A stretch of 64,000 bases of DNA from IMG/VR virus record IMGVR_UViG_3300036780_000209, positions 62,001 through 126,000 of that record. One strand, written 5' to 3'. A program made the translations under genes and the position numbers. This DNA is from a virus. How positions within the stretch are numbered: the first letter of the stretch is position 1; every line of letters starts with the position of its first letter. This document shows, piece by piece, positions 4,379 to 56,805 of the stretch. The notes below the pieces were generated by a model. The model had not been told where the DNA came from. It made no database searches and saw nothing but the letters and a program-made list of their open reading frames with translations.

Positions 4379-6477
4379 GATCGCGACATCCGGCGCGGCG
4401 AGGTGCCCCTGCCCCCGTAGCCTGCCCCGGGACGGCCCGTGCGCCCCATGCCGGAGTGCAGGCCCCGGTGCATCCCCGACTGGCCGAGCGCCAGGCCGAA
4501 CGGGTTGGAGAACTGGCCCGGGTCGAACCGCTTGTACGGGTCGTCGCCGCCGGGGAGACTCAGGCCGGGCCGCTGGCGGGCCAGGTCGCGGCCGAGGAAG
4601 GTGCCCATCTGCTCGCCGAGCAGGGCGGCCGTGACGATCGCGACGCAGTCGGCGATGTCCTTGGTCTGGACCGGGCCCGAGGTAGGGCAGATGACCTTGG
4701 ACTGGCCCTCGGGCTTCTGGAGGAACTTCAGCTCCTGGGCCGCCTCCATGTGCACCGGGGCATGCACCAGCCCCATGTTCAGGCATGCCTTGAAGGTCTC
4801 GTAGGTACTCCAGTTCAGGGCGGCCGTGGCATCGCGGACATAGACCTGGACGTTCTTCTGCAGGTGCCCGGCCCGGACGCGCTTCTGCAGCGCCTGGACC
4901 GTGGCCGGGGCATTGAACTGGTCGAACGTCAGCTCGTCCGGCTGGAACCTGGTGACCACGTTGGAGTAGATCCACTCGATGATCTCGTCGTAGTCCACGA
5001 AGTGATCGTCGTAATCCGCCGGATCCCAGAAGTGGATGAGGTCGAACACCGCGTGATTCAGGCCGTCGGGGCCGGGCTCCTCGTGGGCCAGGGCAAAGCC
5101 GAACCGGCAGTTGACGTTCGAGGGGTCACCGTGCGCCCGGTAGCTGACCAGGAGGGGTCCCCGGACCTGGTTCTCCAGGTGCGGCGGTCCCCAGTCAGGG
5201 TGGCGCTCGCCCCAGTCGGCGAACATGCCGTCCACCCGGGCGGCAGCCAGGTAGGCGTCCATCGCGGTAGCCCAGTTGGACAGGCGCTCCACCCGGAAGG
5301 CGTCCGGATTGGCGCGCTCCTCCTTGCGCATGTTGTCGTCGTAGGCCTGGATCGCCCCGCGCAGCTTTCGGAAGCGGGGAACTTCGGCGTGCTCCTGCAG
5401 GTCCCCCGTGAAGCCAGGCGGGAAGATCTCCAGCTCGTGCGCCCGCTCCCAGTCCTTGTACGGCCCCCAGGAGGGGAGCTGCAGCATGAGCTTGTTCTGG
5501 TAGACCGCCATGAGCTGGTCGTCGTGCAGCTCGCGCTGCAGGGACAGCTCCCACAGCTCGTAGAAGCGCCCTGTCATCTCCCAGGTGGAGCTGGGCAGGA
5601 TGATGAAGGCGTCGGTGCCGAACTGGTCCAGGGACGGGGTGGCGGCATTGTAGACGGCACCGAACTCGCGGGTGATCCCCGCGTTCTTGACGTGGGCGGC
5701 CTCGTCGAACCCGACCAGGAAGCCGGCCTGGCCACGGGGAGCCACCAGGGTGGACTCCCGGGGGACGATCGAGAAGCTCGCCATGTCCCGGGTCGTCCGG
5801 ATGCCCCGGGCTGCCATCTTCCGCATCCGGACGAAATCATAGGGAGCGTAAACCGTCAGCGATTCCGCCAGGGGGGCGGAAATGTATTCCGTGAAGCACG
5901 GGGCCGTCGTGATGACGTTGTAAAGGTCCCCCCAGAGGTTTTCCTTGGCCTGCTCCCTCTTGCTCGCGAAGATCATTGCCGAGAGCTGCTTGTTCGGGTC
6001 AATGCCGTAGTATTCCTGGGGGTTTCCCTTGGCCAGGTAATTCCAGAGCACGTAGGCCATGGCCAGGGAAGAGACATAGCCTTTAGCGCCACGGCGGCCG
6101 ATTGCCAGGATAACCTCGCGGAACCACCGGTAATTGTGTGCTTTCAGCCACGCGATCCGCTCGTAGACATCAGGCTGGATCCCGTTGGTGCGGGCCGTGA
6201 ACTTATTCTCGACTCCGGCGTCAGGGTTGGTCTCGTTGAAGTCGTTGATCCACTCTGCGATGACCTGGTGGTCGTAATCGGTGAACAGGTCGTCGCGGAG
6301 GAAGATGATCTTGAGCAGGGTTGCCTGGCGGGGGTAGAGATTGGGCTTGTCCAGCCAGTGCTCGCTGAGGACGAAGGTGATCGGGTCCGGGACCGGGAGG
6401 TTGTCGTACCACCCGAGCACCTCCAGGGGGTTCATCCCTCCGGTGTCGGGAGCCTCCCAGAAGCCGGGCCTCGGCAT
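4375..6477 (-). CDS. terL: Terminase large subunit
   Basis: This 700-residue protein is the ATPase-nuclease motor that packages DNA into the prohead. The ATPase domain shows a degenerate Walker A (IGRRGAKGYVSS) and a clear Walker B (LVGFDEAAH). The C-terminal half has acidic residues consistent with the RNase H-like nuclease domain (HFWDPADYDDHFVDYDE). The first plausible ATG (6475-6477) sits two bases after the stop of the preceding gene, so translation is probably coupled; no good Shine-Dalgarno is visible. An upstream ATG in frame would overlap the previous gene by 93 bases and is less likely. The last 60 residues are rich in Gly, Arg and Pro and are probably disordered. Confidence 0.9.
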   Translation of the reverse strand: MPRPGFWEAPDTGGMNPLEVLGWYDNLPVPDPITFVLSEHWLDKPNLYPRQATLLKIIFLRDDLFTDYDHQVIAEWINDFNETNPDAGVENKFTARTNGIQPDVYERIAWLKAHNYRWFREVILAIGRRGAKGYVSSLAMAYVLWNYLAKGNPQEYYGIDPNKQLSAMIFASKREQAKENLWGDLYNVITTAPCFTEYISAPLAESLTVYAPYDFVRMRKMAARGIRTTRDMASFSIVPRESTLVAPRGQAGFLVGFDEAAHVKNAGITREFGAVYNAATPSLDQFGTDAFIILPSSTWEMTGRFYELWELSLQRELHDDQLMAVYQNKLMLQLPSWGPYKDWERAHELEIFPPGFTGDLQEHAEVPRFRKLRGAIQAYDDNMRKEERANPDAFRVERLSNWATAMDAYLAAARVDGMFADWGERHPDWGPPHLENQVRGPLLVSYRAHGDPSNVNCRFGFALAHEEPGPDGLNHAVFDLIHFWDPADYDDHFVDYDEIIEWIYSNVVTRFQPDELTFDQFNAPATVQALQKRVRAGHLQKNVQVYVRDATAALNWSTYETFKACLNMGLVHAPVHMEAAQELKFLQKPEGQSKVICPTSGPVQTKDIADCVAIVTAALLGEQMGTFLGRDLARQRPGLSLPGGDDPYKRFDPGQFSNPFGLALGQSGMHRGLHSGMGRTGRPGAGYGGRGTSPRRMSRS

Positions 6478-8699: not shown

Positions 8700-8826
8700 C
8701 GTCCTTGATGCTCCCTAAGCCCAGAAGTTAAGAACTGCCCTATCTGAGCCAGATGTTAACCGATGAAAAGGCCACGTGTCATCACCGGCTAAAGAAGCAG
8801 CGTTTTTCCTGCAAGGAGAATTGATA

Positions 8827-8856
8827 AAGCCCGGCCGCTGATTAGCAACCGGGCTT
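8827..8856 (-). terminator. Hairpin terminator ending the replication operon
   Basis: AAGCCCGG (8827-8834) and CCGGGCTT (8849-8856) form a perfect 8-bp stem with a 14-base loop just after the stop codon at 8874. On the minus strand the stem is followed by TATCAATTCTCC, a short weak U-run. The rest of 8700-8826 is AT-richer than its surroundings and probably holds the promoter for the sigma-like gene, but no convincing -35/-10 pair was found. Confidence 0.6.
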
Positions 8857-8873
8857 GTATCTTTACGAGAAAA

Positions 8874-9557
8874 TCAGGTCTTGGTGACCTGCATCAGGAT
8901 CTGTTCCAGGCGCGTCATGGCGCGGACCAGGGCATCTGCACGCCGCGAGAGAATCGACTTGAATACGCCGAAATATCTCTCATCGAGAGAATGAGTCACG
9001 CCGGCCTGGGCCTTGTCGTCCACCGTGGACTTGCCCGGGACGTTCTGGAAGCCGTCGGCGAAGCGCTCCTCCCAGGCCACTTTCGCGAGCATCGCCTCGC
9101 CCCACAGCCCGGCTGCCACCTGCTCCCACTCGAACAGGCGGCCCGTGATCTCCTGGAGGTACTGCAGCCGCTCCCGGTCCGAGATCCTCAGCCAGTTCTC
9201 CACCGGGCTCCCGTTATCGTGCACCTTCCAGGTGGGGCGGCCGTCGGGACCGGTCTTCATCGTCCCGTCCGGGCTGATCTCCGGCTCGCGCACCAGGAGG
9301 TACAGCCGGTCCATGAGCGCGAACGCGCCCCCGAACTGGGACCTCATCACCTTCTCGGCCTGGACCTTGATCTCCTCGATCACGATCCGGTCCTCGCCGC
9401 GCCAGGAAGTGCGCATACGGGAGAAGTTCGGGGTGCGGAAGTTGCGCCTGCGGTCATCCGGCAGGTCAGGCTCCACGGGCTCGCTGCCCCCCGGACTCAG
9501 CGGCCTCTCGCTGTCAGCGAGCACCCGGTTGATCTGCTGCCTGCTCTTCTCGTCCAT
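8874..9557 (-). CDS. Hypothetical helical protein, last gene of the replication operon
   Basis: The 227-residue protein starts at ATG 9555-9557, with AGGAG six bases upstream. It is predicted mostly helical from residue 60 on (VIEEIKVQAEKVMRS, ERLQYLQEITGRLFEWEQV, then FKSILSRRADALVRAM). No catalytic motif is obvious. The start lies 44 bases inside the RuvC-like gene, so it is co-translated with the recombination genes. A role as accessory to replication or recombination is plausible by position only. Confidence 0.6.
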   Translation of the reverse strand: MDEKSRQQINRVLADSERPLSPGGSEPVEPDLPDDRRRNFRTPNFSRMRTSWRGEDRIVIEEIKVQAEKVMRSQFGGAFALMDRLYLLVREPEISPDGTMKTGPDGRPTWKVHDNGSPVENWLRISDRERLQYLQEITGRLFEWEQVAAGLWGEAMLAKVAWEERFADGFQNVPGKSTVDDKAQAGVTHSLDERYFGVFKSILSRRADALVRAMTRLEQILMQVTKT

Positions 9558-10173
9558 CCTGGCTCCTCTTGAGGTCATGCAGGAACGTCAGCGCCAGAGC
9601 CGCCGCGTCCCTCTCGTGCTCATTCCAGTTGCGCCCGGAGGATTCAGGTATATACCTGGCCACCGACAGCGCGATGTCCTTCTTGGCCCTGGCCGTCGGC
9701 GGCCTGCGCCCTCCGCAGAGCACGGCATAGGCATGCTGGGCAGACACCGGGCGGAAATGCTCTCCGGCATGCATGTAGACGAAAGTGCTCGCGATCAGCG
9801 CCGACTCGGTCCGGTGCCCACCGCTGCCCACCCAGGGGGTCTCGCAGACGATCCAGGCACACGCCTCCACCGCGCTGCGGATGGTCGTCCCCAGCTCGTC
9901 GTTCAGCAACCGGGCCTTGTCCCAGGTCGCCATGAACCCGGTGTGACCGGTGGACGGCCGGATCGTGCGCTTGTCCCAGACGTTCACCAGCGGGCCGCCG
10001 GCGTAATTCGCTCCCATGACCTCCAGCCGTACCCAGCCGCAGTTCGTCAGTGTCGGGTCGAATGCCAGGACATACTCCCCGGTCGCGAAATCGGAAATGA
10101 GAGGCGGCCGGAAAACATCGCCTTTCGGCTTTCCGGCGGAGAGCTTTTCCCGGAACCTGTCGATATCATTCAC
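9514..10173 (-). CDS. RuvC-like Holliday junction resolvase
   Basis: The 219-residue protein has the RNase H-fold pattern of RuvC resolvases: an N-terminal acidic strand (LAFDPTLTNCGW), a second acidic strand (WIVCETPWVG) and a C-terminal acidic helix (HERDAAALAL). Such enzymes cut four-way junctions during recombination or before packaging. The start is GTG at 10171-10173. It overlaps the previous stop in a GTGA arrangement and has AGGAG about 9 bases upstream. It belongs to a tightly coupled recombination block with RecA and two other nucleases. Confidence 0.75.
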   Translation of the reverse strand: MNDIDRFREKLSAGKPKGDVFRPPLISDFATGEYVLAFDPTLTNCGWVRLEVMGANYAGGPLVNVWDKRTIRPSTGHTGFMATWDKARLLNDELGTTIRSAVEACAWIVCETPWVGSGGHRTESALIASTFVYMHAGEHFRPVSAQHAYAVLCGGRRPPTARAKKDIALSVARYIPESSGRNWNEHERDAAALALTFLHDLKRSQDGREEQAADQPGAR

Positions 10174-13049: not shown

Positions 13050-16000
13050 TTACCCTCCCATCAGCAGGATGTCATCAAGCCGCCACGAGGTGCGGGCGGT
13101 GCCGTCCTGGAAGTAGCGGCTCTTCCGGACGGTGGCCAGAACCAGGGAACCGGGGCGCAGGAAGCGCACGGCCGTGGTCAGGTCAGGCTCATCATCACGC
13201 CTCGGCTGGAAGACCGCCACGTCCAGCGAGGACACCTCGCTCACCAGGCTGAGCCAGTACATGGTGCCTCCCTTGCGGGTCCGGGCCGCGTGAGCGCCGC
13301 CCGCTACCGCGAGCATCGGGTACGAGCCAGGCTGAGCGCCGGGCAGCATCAGGGCAATGTCCCGGGCCTGCGCCCGGGTGCCGGCCCCGAACCTCTCCAT
13401 CAGGCCGAACACCGAGTCCGACATCCAGCACCCGAAGATCTCGGAATCCAGCCGGAACAGGTCCTGCGGGGAGTACTCCGGGATCATGGACAGGTCCGTC
13501 ACGCCGGGAGGCGTGTAATGCCTGCAGGCCCGGGTGCAGCGCCTGGGCAGCGGCTTGGGCTTGGATTTCAGCTCCCTGCCGGTCTTCTCGCTGATCCGGA
13601 TCGGCACCGGCTCGGTGCTCCAGTTGAAGTGGCACGGCAGCCCCCCGGGGCCGCTGAACCCGTCTTCCTTGTGAACGCACTTCGTGGACTCCCCGGTCCG
13701 GTCTGCCTCCAGGGCCTGCACGACCCCCCTGCGGCTGATCACCAGGGCATCGAGCGCCCCGGACCGGGCCAGGGCATAGAGGACGCCACTGTCCACCTTC
13801 GAGCGCGTGATGAAGTCATCGTAGGAGCTGTACGGCTGCCCGGCCTGGATATCCCGGAGGGCAGCCGGGCCGATGCCCTTGATCGAGGAGAGGCCATAGC
13901 GGACGCCCAGGCCCTCCGGGAGGAAGCTCCCCCCGCAGAACCGCGCATCCGGCGGCAGGATGGTCAGTCCCATCCGGCGGGCGTCAGTCGCATATTCCGG
14001 CATGCGGTCCTTGTCCTTGAGCGTGGAAAGGATCGCGGTGAATGTCTCCACCGGGTAGTGGGCTTTCAGCCATGCAGTCTGGAATGCCAGCACCGCGTAA
14101 CTAACGGAATGGCTCTTGTTGAATCCGTACCTGGCGTACTCCGCCATCTTGTCCCAGATTTCCTGGGCCTTTTCCTGATCAACTCCGTTACTGATGCAAC
14201 GCGAGACGAATTTCTCTCCGGCCGGGCCTATCTTCTCGACCTTCTTCTTCCCGAGAATCTGCCGTACCTCGTCAGCCTCAGCCGAGTCGTAACCTGCCAG
14301 GAGACGGCAGGCTGCCATTACGTCTTCCTGGAACAGCATGATCCCGAAGCGGCTCGAAAGCGTTTCCTCCAGTCGCTCGTGAAGGAAATCGACTTCCTCT
14401 GTCCCGGCCCGGCGGCGGTAATACGACTCCGCCATCCCGGAATTTCGCGGGCCGGGCCGGACGAGAGCCACCAGGTCGGCCAGGTCGGCAATCGAGCGGG
14501 GGCGCATCCGGCGGCAGCCCTGCTGGCCGAGGCTCGTCTCCACCTGGAACATGCCGAGGGTGTGGCCCGACCCGACCTCATCCCAGACCAGCGGGTCGTC
14601 ATACTCGCCGTCCCAGGCGGACACGTCGATCTCCGCGCCGGTTCGCTCGCGGATCAGGTTAACCGCCATCTGCACCGAGTCGAGGGTGCGGATCGTCAGG
14701 AAGTCGAGCTTGAGCATCCCCAGGATGTCGAGGGTCCGGTAGCCCCACTGGCTGATCAGGATGCCCCCCTCCCCGGCCCTCATGGGGAGCTGGCCCTCCA
14801 GGGGGCGGCTCGTGCTGATCACCAGGCCCGCCGGGTGCTTGCCGTAGCTGTTGAGGCGTCCCACGAGCTGCGAGGCATACCCGAAGATGCCGGGGTACTT
14901 GGCGACGTAGGGAGCCAGCAGCTCTTCCTGCTGCTCCATCAGCTCGTCCCAGGGCATGCCCAGGCCGGCCGTGTGGCTCTCCGCCTCGTCGATGATCGAG
15001 GCAATCTGGCGCGAGTCGTCGAACCATTCCTGCGGCAGCTTGTCCCCCATGATCGAGAAGAGCTTGTTCAGCACCCCCTTGCTTCGGTACCGCAGGTGGG
15101 TGCCCACCCGGACCACCTTGTCGGCCCCGTACTTGCCGATCACGTAGTCCTGGATCATGTCCCGCGCCGAGCTGGGGAAGTCCATGTCGAAGTCAGGAAG
15201 CGACGTGCGGCCGGGGGTGACGAAGCGCTCGAACATCAGCCCGTGCTGAACGGGATCCACCGAGGTGATGCGCAGCAGGTAGGCCATCAGGCTGCCCGCA
15301 GCCGAGCCCCGGAACCCCACCAGGATGCCCTGGCTGCGAGCCCACTGGCACACGTCATTGACGATCAGGTAGCACCCGGCAAGCTGCTTCTCGGCGACCA
15401 GCTTCCACTCGCTCTCCAGCCGGTCCAGGTACACGCGGGCCGGAGCGCTCTTCATCGGGCGGGCGGCCCAGGCCTCCATGCACAGGTCGAGCAGCATGGA
15501 GGCGTCCTGGCGGGCTGAGCTGGTGAAGACGGGCGGGTCGGCGTGGCCGCCGATCCGGGCATTGCACATCTCGGCGATCTCGGCGGCGTTCCTGACGGAC
15601 CGGTCCGCGACCTCCGGGCCGAGGTAAGCCAGTGCCTGGCGCGTCTCCTGCTCGGTGTGCATGTGGACGTAATGCCAGAAGTCATCGTTGGCCGGGCTCG
15701 TCTGGCAGGCCATCCAGAGGCGGTGGGTATCGGTCTTGTCGGCCGTGGTGAAGTGCGAGTCCGCCGCCGCGACCAGGGGGATGCCCATGCCGTCGCTGAT
15801 CGAGGCAAGCATCTTGTTCAGCTTGACCTGCTCGGGCAGCGCATTGGTCTGCAGCTCCAGGTAGAAGCGGTCGCCGAGGATCTCGCGGAGCCGGGTGATG
15901 CGCTGGAAGGCCCCCTCGAAATTGCTGCTGAGGAGCTGGCGGGAGACCAGGCCGCCGAGGCAGCCGCTGGTGACGATCAGGCGGCTGCCATAGCGCTCCA

Positions 16001-16388
16001 GCAGCTCGTAATCGAGCCGGGGCTTGTGGTAGAAGCCGCTGACCGACGCCTCGGTGGAGGCCGCCCACAGGTCGTGCAGCCCCTGGTCATCCATGGCCAG
16101 CATGACCAGGTGCCGGTTATCCCGCAGTGCCTGCTGGGCGGTCTTGTCCGCCGGAGCGGGCCGCAGCGTCCGGTCAGGGACGAAATAGCCCTCCATCCCG
16201 AAGACCGGCTTTATCCCGGCCTTGTCGCACTCCTGCTGATGCTCCGGGTGGCCCGCGCAATTGCCGTGGTCAGTGATCGCCACAGCCGGGTTCCCGTCGG
16301 CAGCAGCCTGGGCCACCACTTCGGCAACGGTGGACAAACCATCCAAAGCACTATATTCGGTGTGCGTATGAAGATGAGCGAATGCCAT
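13050..16388 (-). CDS. dnaE: DNA polymerase III alpha subunit (DnaE-type)
   Basis: The 1112-residue protein is close to full bacterial DnaE length. It begins with a PHP domain (HLHTHTEYSALDG; AITDHGNCAG) and has the family C catalytic motifs: FRGSAAGSL, PDFDMDF near residue 398, and a helix-hairpin-helix-like motif late in the protein (SSIKGIGPAALRDIQAG). It replicates the phage genome, probably with the host beta clamp. The C-terminal part contains a cysteine cluster (CTRACRHYTPPG) where bacterial enzymes have OB or tau-binding regions. The ATG has GGAGG five bases upstream. A phage carrying its own DnaE rather than a family A or B polymerase is known but uncommon. Confidence 0.93.
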   Translation of the reverse strand: MAFAHLHTHTEYSALDGLSTVAEVVAQAAADGNPAVAITDHGNCAGHPEHQQECDKAGIKPVFGMEGYFVPDRTLRPAPADKTAQQALRDNRHLVMLAMDDQGLHDLWAASTEASVSGFYHKPRLDYELLERYGSRLIVTSGCLGGLVSRQLLSSNFEGAFQRITRLREILGDRFYLELQTNALPEQVKLNKMLASISDGMGIPLVAAADSHFTTADKTDTHRLWMACQTSPANDDFWHYVHMHTEQETRQALAYLGPEVADRSVRNAAEIAEMCNARIGGHADPPVFTSSARQDASMLLDLCMEAWAARPMKSAPARVYLDRLESEWKLVAEKQLAGCYLIVNDVCQWARSQGILVGFRGSAAGSLMAYLLRITSVDPVQHGLMFERFVTPGRTSLPDFDMDFPSSARDMIQDYVIGKYGADKVVRVGTHLRYRSKGVLNKLFSIMGDKLPQEWFDDSRQIASIIDEAESHTAGLGMPWDELMEQQEELLAPYVAKYPGIFGYASQLVGRLNSYGKHPAGLVISTSRPLEGQLPMRAGEGGILISQWGYRTLDILGMLKLDFLTIRTLDSVQMAVNLIRERTGAEIDVSAWDGEYDDPLVWDEVGSGHTLGMFQVETSLGQQGCRRMRPRSIADLADLVALVRPGPRNSGMAESYYRRRAGTEEVDFLHERLEETLSSRFGIMLFQEDVMAACRLLAGYDSAEADEVRQILGKKKVEKIGPAGEKFVSRCISNGVDQEKAQEIWDKMAEYARYGFNKSHSVSYAVLAFQTAWLKAHYPVETFTAILSTLKDKDRMPEYATDARRMGLTILPPDARFCGGSFLPEGLGVRYGLSSIKGIGPAALRDIQAGQPYSSYDDFITRSKVDSGVLYALARSGALDALVISRRGVVQALEADRTGESTKCVHKEDGFSGPGGLPCHFNWSTEPVPIRISEKTGRELKSKPKPLPRRCTRACRHYTPPGVTDLSMIPEYSPQDLFRLDSEIFGCWMSDSVFGLMERFGAGTRAQARDIALMLPGAQPGSYPMLAVAGGAHAARTRKGGTMYWLSLVSEVSSLDVAVFQPRRDDEPDLTTAVRFLRPGSLVLATVRKSRYFQDGTARTSWRLDDILLMGG

Positions 16389-16409
16389 CTGCTCCTCCAG
16401 GAGGAAGTA

Positions 16410-16505
16410 CCGGGCCGCGCCACGGGCACGAGTCAGGCCGGGGGCATCGCCCCCCAGCTACGCCGCGCCGGCCGGGGAGACCCGTGCGCCGATGGCGCGG
16501 CCCGG
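16410..16505 (-). ncRNA. Highly structured RNA leader or terminator between the SSB-like gene and dnaE
   Basis: A perfect 12-bp inverted repeat, CCGGGCCGCGCC (16410-16421) and GGCGCGGCCCGG (16494-16505), encloses a second pair (CACGGG 16421-16426 with CCCGTG 16481-16486). Inside is a tight hairpin, GGGGGC-ATC-GCCCCC (16440-16454). The element starts six bases after the preceding stop and ends about 10 bases before the dnaE ribosome binding site. It has no U-tract. It could be a terminator or attenuator, an RNA-processing site or an unknown regulatory RNA. Confidence 0.5.
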
Positions 16506-16510
16506 AGCTT

Positions 16511-17428
16511 TCAGGAGGAGGAGGGTGCGCTGGCCGCGTCCTGCAGCCGCGTCTTGAAGGCGTCGAGCTTGGCCTGATCGACTTCCGCGCCAGACTCAGG
16601 GTCGGACGCAGCGGCATGCACCTCAGCGCCGCCATCGCCGTCGGTGAAGTCACCGGGGACGAAGAACCGGCGGTAGTACTCGGCAGATGCCTGCTCGACG
16701 ACGGAGGCGAAGATATCGATCTTCATGACCTCCATGGCGTCGGTATACGTCTTCCAGGAAGGAGTGCCCGGCGCATGGTCCGCCGTCGGGGGAAGCGGGG
16801 TGATGATGTAGTCGTTGACCTGCCGGGCGATCCGCCAGTCCTTGTTGACGACGGTGTTGTCCAGGAACGCGCCGGCCTTCATGGCGGAGAAGAAGTTGCC
16901 CCACCGCTGGCTGATGACGCGGAACGCCGGCACGCGGTGCTTCGAGCCCTTGGCGTCCGACCATTCCTCGGTGACATCACGCATGGCGACGATCGCGCCC
17001 GCATCGTTGGTGACGGGCTCGCGCAGGACGCAGAGCGCGAACACCATCGGGGCGGCGTTGGACTTGGGCTTGTTGTACCGGTCGAGCACGCCGGCCATGT
17101 TCTCGTGAATCCAGCAGTGGCCCATCCCGGCCTCGTAGGTCGCGGGCTCGACGGGCTTGCCGGCCTCATCATAGATGAGGAACATCGGGTCGTTCTGGCA
17201 GGTCGCCGACATCAGCGCGGGCCACTTGCCGGTGTACCCGGAGGGCTGGTTCTTGGTGGGGATCGCCGGGTGGGTATCGGCGTTCACCCAGTCCGCGCAG
17301 TCATCGATCATGCGGACGTAGACCGGGGGATCCCCGTCCTTGATCCGGAGGAACTCAACGCGGCCCGCGCCGCCGGTCTTGGCGGACTGCTCGGCCTGCT
17401 CTGCGCCCTTGCGTGCGACTGGCATCAT
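16511..17428 (-). CDS. Possible single-stranded DNA-binding protein
   Basis: The 305-residue protein begins with a basic, low-complexity segment, then a beta-rich domain (VEFLRIKDGDPPVYVRMIDD, ...THPAIPTKNQPSG), an aromatic-rich part (GHCWIHENM), and an acidic tail (DFTDGDGGAEVHAAASDPES). This layout and its position directly upstream of dnaE resemble gp32-like or other SSB-type proteins of actinobacteriophages. The resemblance is weak and by memory of family style only. The start overlaps the previous stop as ATGA, with GAGGTGA upstream. Confidence 0.4.
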   Translation of the reverse strand: MMPVARKGAEQAEQSAKTGGAGRVEFLRIKDGDPPVYVRMIDDCADWVNADTHPAIPTKNQPSGYTGKWPALMSATCQNDPMFLIYDEAGKPVEPATYEAGMGHCWIHENMAGVLDRYNKPKSNAAPMVFALCVLREPVTNDAGAIVAMRDVTEEWSDAKGSKHRVPAFRVISQRWGNFFSAMKAGAFLDNTVVNKDWRIARQVNDYIITPLPPTADHAPGTPSWKTYTDAMEVMKIDIFASVVEQASAEYYRRFFVPGDFTDGDGGAEVHAAASDPESGAEVDQAKLDAFKTRLQDAASAPSSS

Positions 17429-23302: not shown

Positions 23303-23327
23303 GTCGGTCCTCTCCTGGTAAAGCGGA

Positions 23328-23359
23328 CTGGCCGCACGGGCGGATTCCCGTGCGGCCAG
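23328..23359 (-). terminator. Strong intergenic hairpin (13-bp perfect stem)
   Basis: CTGGCCGCACGGG (23328-23340) and CCCGTGCGGCCAG (23347-23359) form a perfect stem with a 6-base loop just after the stop at 23381. On the minus strand it is followed by TCCGCTTTACC, only a weak U-run. It may be a partial terminator or RNA-stabilising hairpin that lowers expression after the first gene of the replication operon. Confidence 0.65.
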
Positions 23360-23380
23360 CTTCCCGCTCTGTCATTTCCC

Positions 23381-24130: not shown

Positions 24131-24159
24131 GTGGTCTCCTCCGGGTTGGCTGAGACAAG

Positions 24160-24187
24160 ATTATCAAGAAACCTTGCAATCAGTCAA
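24160..24187 (-). promoter_or_regulatory. Promoter of the replication operon with embedded operator-like repeat
   Basis: On the minus strand TTGACT (24182-24187) is followed after 16 bases by GATAAT (24160-24165). The spacer carries CAAGGTTTCTTG (24165-24176), an inverted repeat also present at other promoters of this phage. This is the best sigma-70-like promoter in the window and lies 30 bases before the start codon. Confidence 0.7.
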
Positions 24188-24192
24188 CACTA

Positions 24193-24216
24193 AGGCCGGG
24201 CTCGGAAGCCCGGCCT
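24193..24216 (-). terminator. Terminator of the late (structural) operon
   Basis: AGGCCGGGCT and AGCCCGGCCT form a perfect 10-bp stem. On the transcribed strand the loop is UCCG, a UNCG-like tetraloop. It is followed by TAGTGTT, a short U-poor tail. It lies between the holin-like gene and the replication promoter and so insulates the two operons. Confidence 0.65.
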
Positions 24217-24263
24217 CAGCGCCATCTCGAAGGAGGCCCGCCCGGAGTCGGAACCCGGCCGGA

Positions 24264-24287
24264 CAAGGTTCAGTATAAGGAACCTTG
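24264..24287. promoter_or_regulatory. Operator-like inverted repeat, possibly with a -10 element
   Basis: CAAGGTTC (24264-24271) and GAACCTTG (24280-24287) form an 8-bp inverted repeat. On the minus strand the sequence reads CAAGGTTCCTTATACT, in which TATACT resembles a -10 box. A transcript starting here would meet the terminator at 24193-24216 after about 70 bases and could be a small RNA. Alternatively the repeat is simply a hairpin behind the holin-like gene. Confidence 0.5.
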
Positions 24288-24288
24288 C

Positions 24289-26513: not shown

Positions 26514-26550
26514 TTCAGTGACCTCCGCTCGTTACCCCGGCTCCTGTCCC

Positions 26551-26609
26551 TTCCCGGGCCTGCCCGGGAATGCGGAAGCCCCGCGCCTGCCCGTACCAGG
26601 CGCGGGGCT
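26551..26609 (-). terminator. Double hairpin terminator upstream of the repeat protein
   Basis: AGCCCCGCGCCTG (26577-26589) and CAGGCGCGGGGCT (26597-26609) form a perfect 13-bp stem with a 7-base loop. A second stem, TTCCCGGG (26551-26558) with CCCGGGAA (26563-26570), lies next to it. Together they follow the stop at 26639 on the minus strand. No long U-run is present. The 125-base gap holds no gene. Confidence 0.6.
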
Positions 26610-26638
26610 CCGAAGGTGAGCGGCCCGAGGGCCTCAGC

Positions 26639-34306: not shown

Positions 34307-34317
34307 GGTGACCGGAG

Positions 34318-34355
34318 AGAGGGTGCTCGCCTCCGGGGAGGAGCGAGCGCCCTCT
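34318..34355. terminator. Bidirectional terminator between the helicase and tail genes
   Basis: AGAGGGtGCTCG (34318-34329) pairs with CGAGCgCCCTCT (34344-34355), with a 14-base loop and one wobble position. TTTT follows on the plus strand. It serves the plus-strand helicase and can also stop the minus-strand tail transcript, whose stop is at 34358. Confidence 0.8.
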
Positions 34356-34357
34356 TT

Positions 34358-51466: not shown

Positions 51467-51800
51467 GGCCTTCCGGCTGCTGGTCATGGCCAGCAGGCGG
51501 TTCACCTCCGTGCCGATGATGCGCAGCGCGCTCTTCCGGCTGCAGGAGCCGGGCAGGCTCCTGACCGTGGTCCACAGCGGCAAGGAGGGCGGCGAGACGA
51601 TCGCGAGGCTCTGGGCGCTGGAGCGCCAGGCGCTCGGCGAGCTTGTCGGGGAGGAGGAATCCCCGCTTGAAACAGCAGTCGCGAGTGCCGATCATGCTCT
51701 CATCGGGCTTGTGGCCACGGCTAAGAACAAGGGCACTCGCGACTGCTTCCAGCAGGTCAGGGCCGCAGGGATTCCCTGGGCCTTGATCATCCAGCGCTAG
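51450..51800 (+). CDS. SLOG/DUF2493-like nucleotide-binding protein
   Basis: The 116-residue protein has a Rossmann-like pattern similar to DUF2493/YspA SLOG proteins: a beta-strand start (LVMASRRFTSVPMMRSAL), then VVHSGKEGGETIARLWA, a helix, and ATAKNKGTRDCFQQVRAAGIP, where G-T-R-D-C and R-A-A-G-I-P are typical. SLOG proteins bind nucleotide-derived ligands and occur in stress or conflict systems and phages. Its function here is unknown. It ends in a TAG that overlaps the stop of the convergent hydrolase gene in a shared CTAG. Confidence 0.6.
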   Translation: MDSEAEAFRLLVMASRRFTSVPMMRSALFRLQEPGRLLTVVHSGKEGGETIARLWALERQALGELVGEEESPLETAVASADHALIGLVATAKNKGTRDCFQQVRAAGIPWALIIQR

Positions 51801-56653: not shown

Positions 56654-56805
56654 AGCGGGGTCCTCCACCTGACCATTGACTCCTGGATGCGGAACGGGTC
56701 GGGCTCAGGCGCAAGCTCCGGCGGGTCCGTGACGCTGACCGCTACCGACGCCGAGGCGGTATTGCCGTCGGCGTCGGTAGCGGTAGCGTCGATGACGAGG
56801 ATCAT
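56650..56805 (-). CDS. Small Ig-like fragment protein, 51 aa
   Basis: The ATG overlaps the upstream stop as ATGA. The first part (MILVIDATATDADGNTASAS) strongly resembles the middle of the Ig-like protein just upstream (VTATATDASGQAVSA). It is probably a duplicated beta-strand module with a new C-terminus (EPDPFRIQESMVRW). It ends in the GTGA overlap with the 54-aa gene. Confidence 0.6.
   Translation of the reverse strand: MILVIDATATDADGNTASASVAVSVTDPPELAPEPDPFRIQESMVRWRTPL

Follow-up and report, generated by a model that had tools for sequence, protein, structure and literature searches.

In a replication operon of E. coli, the terminator T1 lies between rpsU and dnaG and serves as an intercistronic attenuator. 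REP/BIME-type elements, for example in malE-malF, act as 3' stabilisers, the early and late mRNAs of phage T7 carry RNase III sites, and in phage T4 an autoregulatory pseudoknot lies 5' of gene 32 and acts together with unstructured RNA. In Streptomyces, Term-seq finds 3-4 U among the 10 nt that follow the hairpin of an intrinsic terminator, and these hairpins are the longest and most stable (PMC12207403).

The element described here is a long hairpin in the gap between the gene of a single-stranded DNA-binding (SSB)-like protein and dnaE in a phage genome. Like T1, it stands between the gene of an abundant product and that of a replication enzyme, whose output it would lower, although its genes and sequence are unrelated to those of rpsU-dnaG. 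With the T7 sites it shares a long intergenic RNA duplex within a phage operon, but it has no conserved internal loop and is tied to one gene junction. It resembles malE-malF in being a stable hairpin between co-transcribed genes of differing protein demand, yet it is not a repeated sequence of the REP/BIME type: it is single-copy, with one match in the 166-kb record. As in T4, an RNA structure is found beside an SSB gene, whose product is perhaps gp32-like, but here a rigid hairpin follows ssb on its 3' side. In common with the U-poor intrinsic terminators of Streptomyces (PMC12207403) it has a long, very stable GC hairpin past a stop codon, and its 4 U in the next 10 nt, though not in a run, lie within their range of 3-4; it differs in being larger, branched and intra-operonic. 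Since the next gene has no recognisable promoter in front of it, any termination here could only be partial.

The ssb-dnaE gap and its hairpin

The window analysed, a 64-kb stretch, comprises positions 62001-126000 of a 166,498-base IMG/VR virus record, and the GC content of the phage is 66%. The gene dnaE, coding for DNA polymerase III alpha (13050-16388; Pfam PHP, DNA_pol3_alpha, DNA_pol3_finger and HHH_6), and the SSB-like gene (16511-17428) share the minus strand, which makes the minus-strand transcript the one to consider; the 122-nt gap between them (16389-16510) is correctly given in the preliminary description. A profile was built from six phage proteins encoded at the same position, three of them annotated as SSB, with the window protein left out, and its sole match among the called window genes was the SSB-like protein (E 6.8e-5). 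The predicted model of this protein (pLDDT 76) returned T4 gp32 (8gme) as its top two Foldseek matches, at an E of 0.03 and a TM of 0.3, which is below significance. Of the positions of a putative zinc motif of the form H-C-C-x2-C/H, H53, C77 and C105 are invariant in the SSB alignment (A8), and the fourth is H in the window protein and C in most relatives. The profile match and the synteny described below suggest that the upstream gene encodes an SSB, and the structural matches hint that it may be of the gp32 type.

The outer stem of the hairpin, which had been described as a perfect 12-bp helix, is indeed perfectly paired but measures 13 bp (CCGGGCCGCGCCA), with its 5' arm at 16493-16505, starting 5 nt past the SSB stop codon, and its perfectly complementary 3' arm at 16410-16422. 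These pairs have a probability of about 1, and 1000 dinucleotide shuffles of the gap gave perfect stems of at most 11 bp. In the minus-strand fold the stem is extended by 3 bp (16423-16425/16489-16491) and 9 bp (16426-16434/16479-16487), the 3' side of the extension (16423-16434) being present in both the MFE and the centroid and its 5' side occupying 16479-16491, to give a near-continuous stem of 25 bp with two single-base bulges. One pair in the 9-bp segment is G.U on the minus strand; on the plus strand the same two positions would be mismatched as A-C. A 6-bp inner hairpin, GGGGGC/GCCCCC, that had been noted earlier is predicted on the plus strand (probability 0.7-0.8) but hardly on the minus strand (0.02), where the terminal loop of the MFE structure instead holds a different stem-loop made of GGCCGG/CCGGCC and an apical helix (16436-16473).

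The minus-strand fold of the gap has a free energy of -84.9 kcal/mol and a z of -4.8, none of 200 shuffles folding equally well, and no other 110-nt stretch of this strand in the window is as stable. The structure is real and well beyond chance. Directly past the stem lies the U-poor tail UACUUCCUCC (16400-16409); the claim that a U-tract is absent holds in that there is no U run, yet 4 of these 10 bases are U. The dnaE Shine-Dalgarno sequence GGAGGAG (16392-16398) is predicted to pair either with the CU-rich stretch at the SSB stop or with a local UCCUC, and 22 nt separate the stem from the dnaE start codon. None of the Rfam 15 covariance models reached its gathering threshold in the window or an E of 5 or less in 16350-16560, and no exact copies of the stem were found in viral contigs.

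Several other repeats were observed. Two perfect inverted repeats of 17 bp and 16 bp lie inside predicted coding sequence of the window (56738-56784 and 51674-51747), and a palindrome of the form GGTTCNNTATANNGAACC (24267-24283) is found in the gap at 24131-24288. The latter resembles the palindromes of another locus, L178, where two operator-like copies of CGTTCCGTATACGGAACG stand beside a terminator-like hairpin between convergent genes (9361-9872, record 153361-153872; z -10.6).

Recurrence of the hairpin in related phages

Scans with DnaE or SSB as single proteins returned almost nothing, and alignment A8 was too divergent for use in scanning. The order SSB, gap, dnaE is widespread, being common to Mycobacterium phage Phox, Gordonia phage Stormageddon and Rhodococcus phage Trina and to the Streptomyces phages Yaboi, Sushi23 and Comrade; in the fuller syntenic order, primase comes first and is often followed by a DnaJ-like gene, after which come SSB, a gap that in most measures 85-150 nt, dnaE and recA. 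Nearer relatives, with DnaE identities of 38-51%, came from scans of viral contigs, and the nearest of all, L236, has about 61% identity over the N-terminal part of DnaE. Relatives were also found in Streptomyces genomes and plasmids, the genome scan yielding contigs of Streptomyces sp. A0642 and MH60, and one DnaE match is common to L106 and plasmid pRLB1-9.1 of Streptomyces sp. RLB1-9. As the hosts of relatives include Streptomyces, the probable host of the window phage, with its GC content of 66%, is a member or near relative of this genus.

In 25 of the 29 close loci the ssb stop is followed directly by a stem of 12 bp or more, each at p <= 0.02 relative to shuffles. Locus L093 (DnaE 51%) fell narrowly outside this threshold at p 0.03, and its gap contains a nested hairpin together with a canonical terminator, GCGCGGGAGCCCG/CGGGCTCCCGCGC followed by TTTTTC. 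The hairpin is missing from L111 and L286, whose gaps are only 30 and 37 nt, and from L236, where a 71-aa ORF (5624-5839) overlaps both ssb (GTGA) and dnaE (TGATG). A wider survey covered 53 DnaE lineages at less than 80% identity, with 206 other gaps of the same loci as controls; genes were called with a simple purpose-written caller and gap edges are therefore approximate. The folding z after ssb had a median of -4.1 (n = 48) against -0.7 in the controls (Mann-Whitney p = 2e-13), and the ssb gap was the top-ranked fold in 30 of 46 loci, where 10 were expected. In the GC-rich group all 16 ssb gaps had a z below -2, as against 12% of controls. Several lower-GC lineages (L022, L056, L041, L076 and L087) lack the hairpin or a long gap, so the feature is common and not universal. 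The stem sequences are wholly different between lineages, which means that the shape is kept and the sequence is not.

The adjoining dnaE genes also vary at their starts. Most near relatives (L013, L094, L102, L120 and others) have about 120 extra N-terminal DnaE residues with an SLVEDDDGIRWLL-type motif, an extension that the window DnaE lacks, and the dnaE start of L093 (about 5149-6000) holds an apparent intein-like insertion of about 850 nt right after MAFAHIHTHSEYC.

Covariation could be followed in a Streptomyces phage-plasmid clade of nine sequences (L094, L097, L098, L103, L104, L106, L145, L181 and L280), the sole alignable set. Its ssb-dnaE gap forms a three-way junction RNA, with an outer stem CCGG-U-CCGCCCCGG, a nearly invariant hairpin 1, GCCGUCAGAUACGGC, and a variable hairpin 2; all seven members tested fold in this way (z -4.4 to -5.9), and 6 of 22 pairs are changed on both sides with pairing kept, a result that is supportive and, with nine sequences, not decisive. 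Direct alignment of the window gap with this clade gave no convincing homology, and the window element has no alignable homologue, the only match being of 8 nt, CTCCGGGC, near the stop, to L093. The preliminary description had looked to related phages, and to covariation in them, for confirmation: a hairpin does lie at the same place in most relatives and covariation was found in the one alignable clade, but the nearest relative is without the element.

Two further observations concern these gaps. The GCCGUCAGAUACGGC hairpin may be a protein or ligand site. The hexamer AGATAC occurs six times, against 0.13 expected, in the ssb gaps of three unalignable lineages (L110 5557-5643, L114 5881-5988, L115 5890-5988 and the L094 clade); it is enriched in intergenic DNA generally.

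Termination, processing and other explanations

On balance we favour the reading that the hairpin is a 3'-end element of ssb, a leaky, U-poor intrinsic terminator (attenuator) that raises SSB over DnaE. RNA polymerase that has passed ssb would encounter the emerging 25-bp GC-rich hairpin and some transcripts would stop just beyond it, giving a stable ssb mRNA, while the remainder would continue into dnaE, the RecA-like gene and those downstream; the phage would thus make SSB, needed in quantity, in excess over DnaE. A stable GC-rich hairpin soon past the stop codon is what a terminator calls for, and here it begins 5 nt beyond the SSB stop (z -4.8). In lower-GC lineages the 10 nt after the stem contain 4.0 U against 2.5 in controls (p = 1.6e-4), as expected of terminators, whereas the GC-rich group shows no such enrichment (2.4 after the stem and 1.9 in control gaps, p = 0.2). 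The lack of a U run had earlier been taken to make a plain terminator doubtful; the run is indeed missing, but the doubt is weakened because Streptomyces terminators typically have 3-4 U in 10 nt (PMC12207403), a range that includes the window tail. No sigma70-like promoter, the type to which the scan was limited, was found in the GC-rich ssb-dnaE gaps, and a few lower-GC gaps (L016, L018 and L068) contain sites resembling TTGACA-N17-TATAAT, which are not enriched relative to control gaps. With no recognisable promoter and 22 nt from stem to start, dnaE probably needs read-through, and a complete terminator followed by a new dnaE promoter is unlikely.

Other features count against termination. 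The same genome has hairpins with better U-tracts, for example GCCGGGCTTTATC at 8700-8873 and GCCCTCTTT at 34307-34357, the stem of 25 bp and its branched loop of 44 nt exceed the usual size of a terminator, and L236 has no hairpin. Mycobacterial RNA polymerase, in work by Czyz from 2014, reportedly needs a U-tract, which would speak against a U-poor terminator. Further terminator-like hairpins were seen in the window at 23303-23380 and 26514-26638.

The main rival, to which we give a real but distinctly smaller chance, is an RNA-processing or 3'-stabilising element: RNase III would cut the duplex, or the duplex would block 3'-to-5' exonucleases; of a joint message the ssb half would then outlive the dnaE half, and transcription itself would go on. 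The near-continuous duplex in the gap (13 + 3 + 9 bp) is longer than the 20 bp or so of an RNase III site, though it is interrupted by two bulges. The missing U enrichment past the stem in the GC-rich group agrees with processing, a stem kept while its sequence changes suits a role of structure only, and the U enrichment in lower-GC lineages and the canonical terminator of L093 point instead to termination. Streptomyces has few canonical terminators, and processing or Rho has been suggested there (PMC12207403). It is the U content, together with the Term-seq comparison, that leads us to prefer a leaky terminator.

We think it improbable that the gap is a translational switch for dnaE, in which the CU-rich end of ssb, CUCCUCCUCCUG, would pair across the hairpin with the dnaE Shine-Dalgarno sequence, the latter being freed by ribosomes finishing ssb, or in which SSB would bind the element. 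The Shine-Dalgarno sequence of the window is fully paired in the minus-strand fold and comparable outer pairing is seen in L102 and L120, but such pairing is missing from most of 24 loci and is no better than in shuffles in all 24, the window included (p >= 0.10). Since complementarity between the ssb end and the dnaE Shine-Dalgarno sequence does not exceed the shuffle level in these loci, conserved sequestration or translational coupling was rejected. The invariant GCCGUCAGAUACGGC of one clade could be a protein site, yet no binding sequence is common across lineages, and the binding of SSB protein proposed in the preliminary description finds no support, because the element is a rigid GC duplex and the precedent, of the gp32 type, binds RNA that is unstructured and lies 5' of the protein's own gene. 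A role at the level of DNA, for instance as a replication or recombination site with incidental RNA folding, seems to us very improbable: the palindrome does lie within a replication module and folds with similar stability on both strands, but RNA accords better with its placement across lineages, past the 3' end of ssb and ahead of dnaE, with the sense-side U enrichment of lower-GC lineages and with a G.U pair that only the sense strand has. Control of dnaE, for example by attenuation, had been put forward from the outset and is the best-supported reading; we infer that the element terminates transcription, with an efficiency that would alter the ratio of the two proteins.

Implications for phage replication

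The hairpin is a probable attenuator of an ordinary kind, and its recurrence at one junction is striking. Most likely it lowers polymerase output relative to the coating protein SSB, and possibly it is also a stabiliser of the mRNA 3' end. A bolder proposal, which we advance as speculation, is that DnaE-type phages use the ssb-dnaE gap as a dedicated regulatory site for setting the SSB:polymerase ratio and that in some clades it is a true regulatory RNA, a three-way junction whose nearly invariant GCCGUCAGAUACGGC hairpin may be bound by SSB or by some other replication protein and may adjust dnaE to the demands of replication. A phage that encodes its own DnaE presumably has to produce SSB in large excess over polymerase from a single operon. 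In many lineages the hairpin stays in one place although its sequence changes, which suggests selection on the SSB:polymerase ratio.
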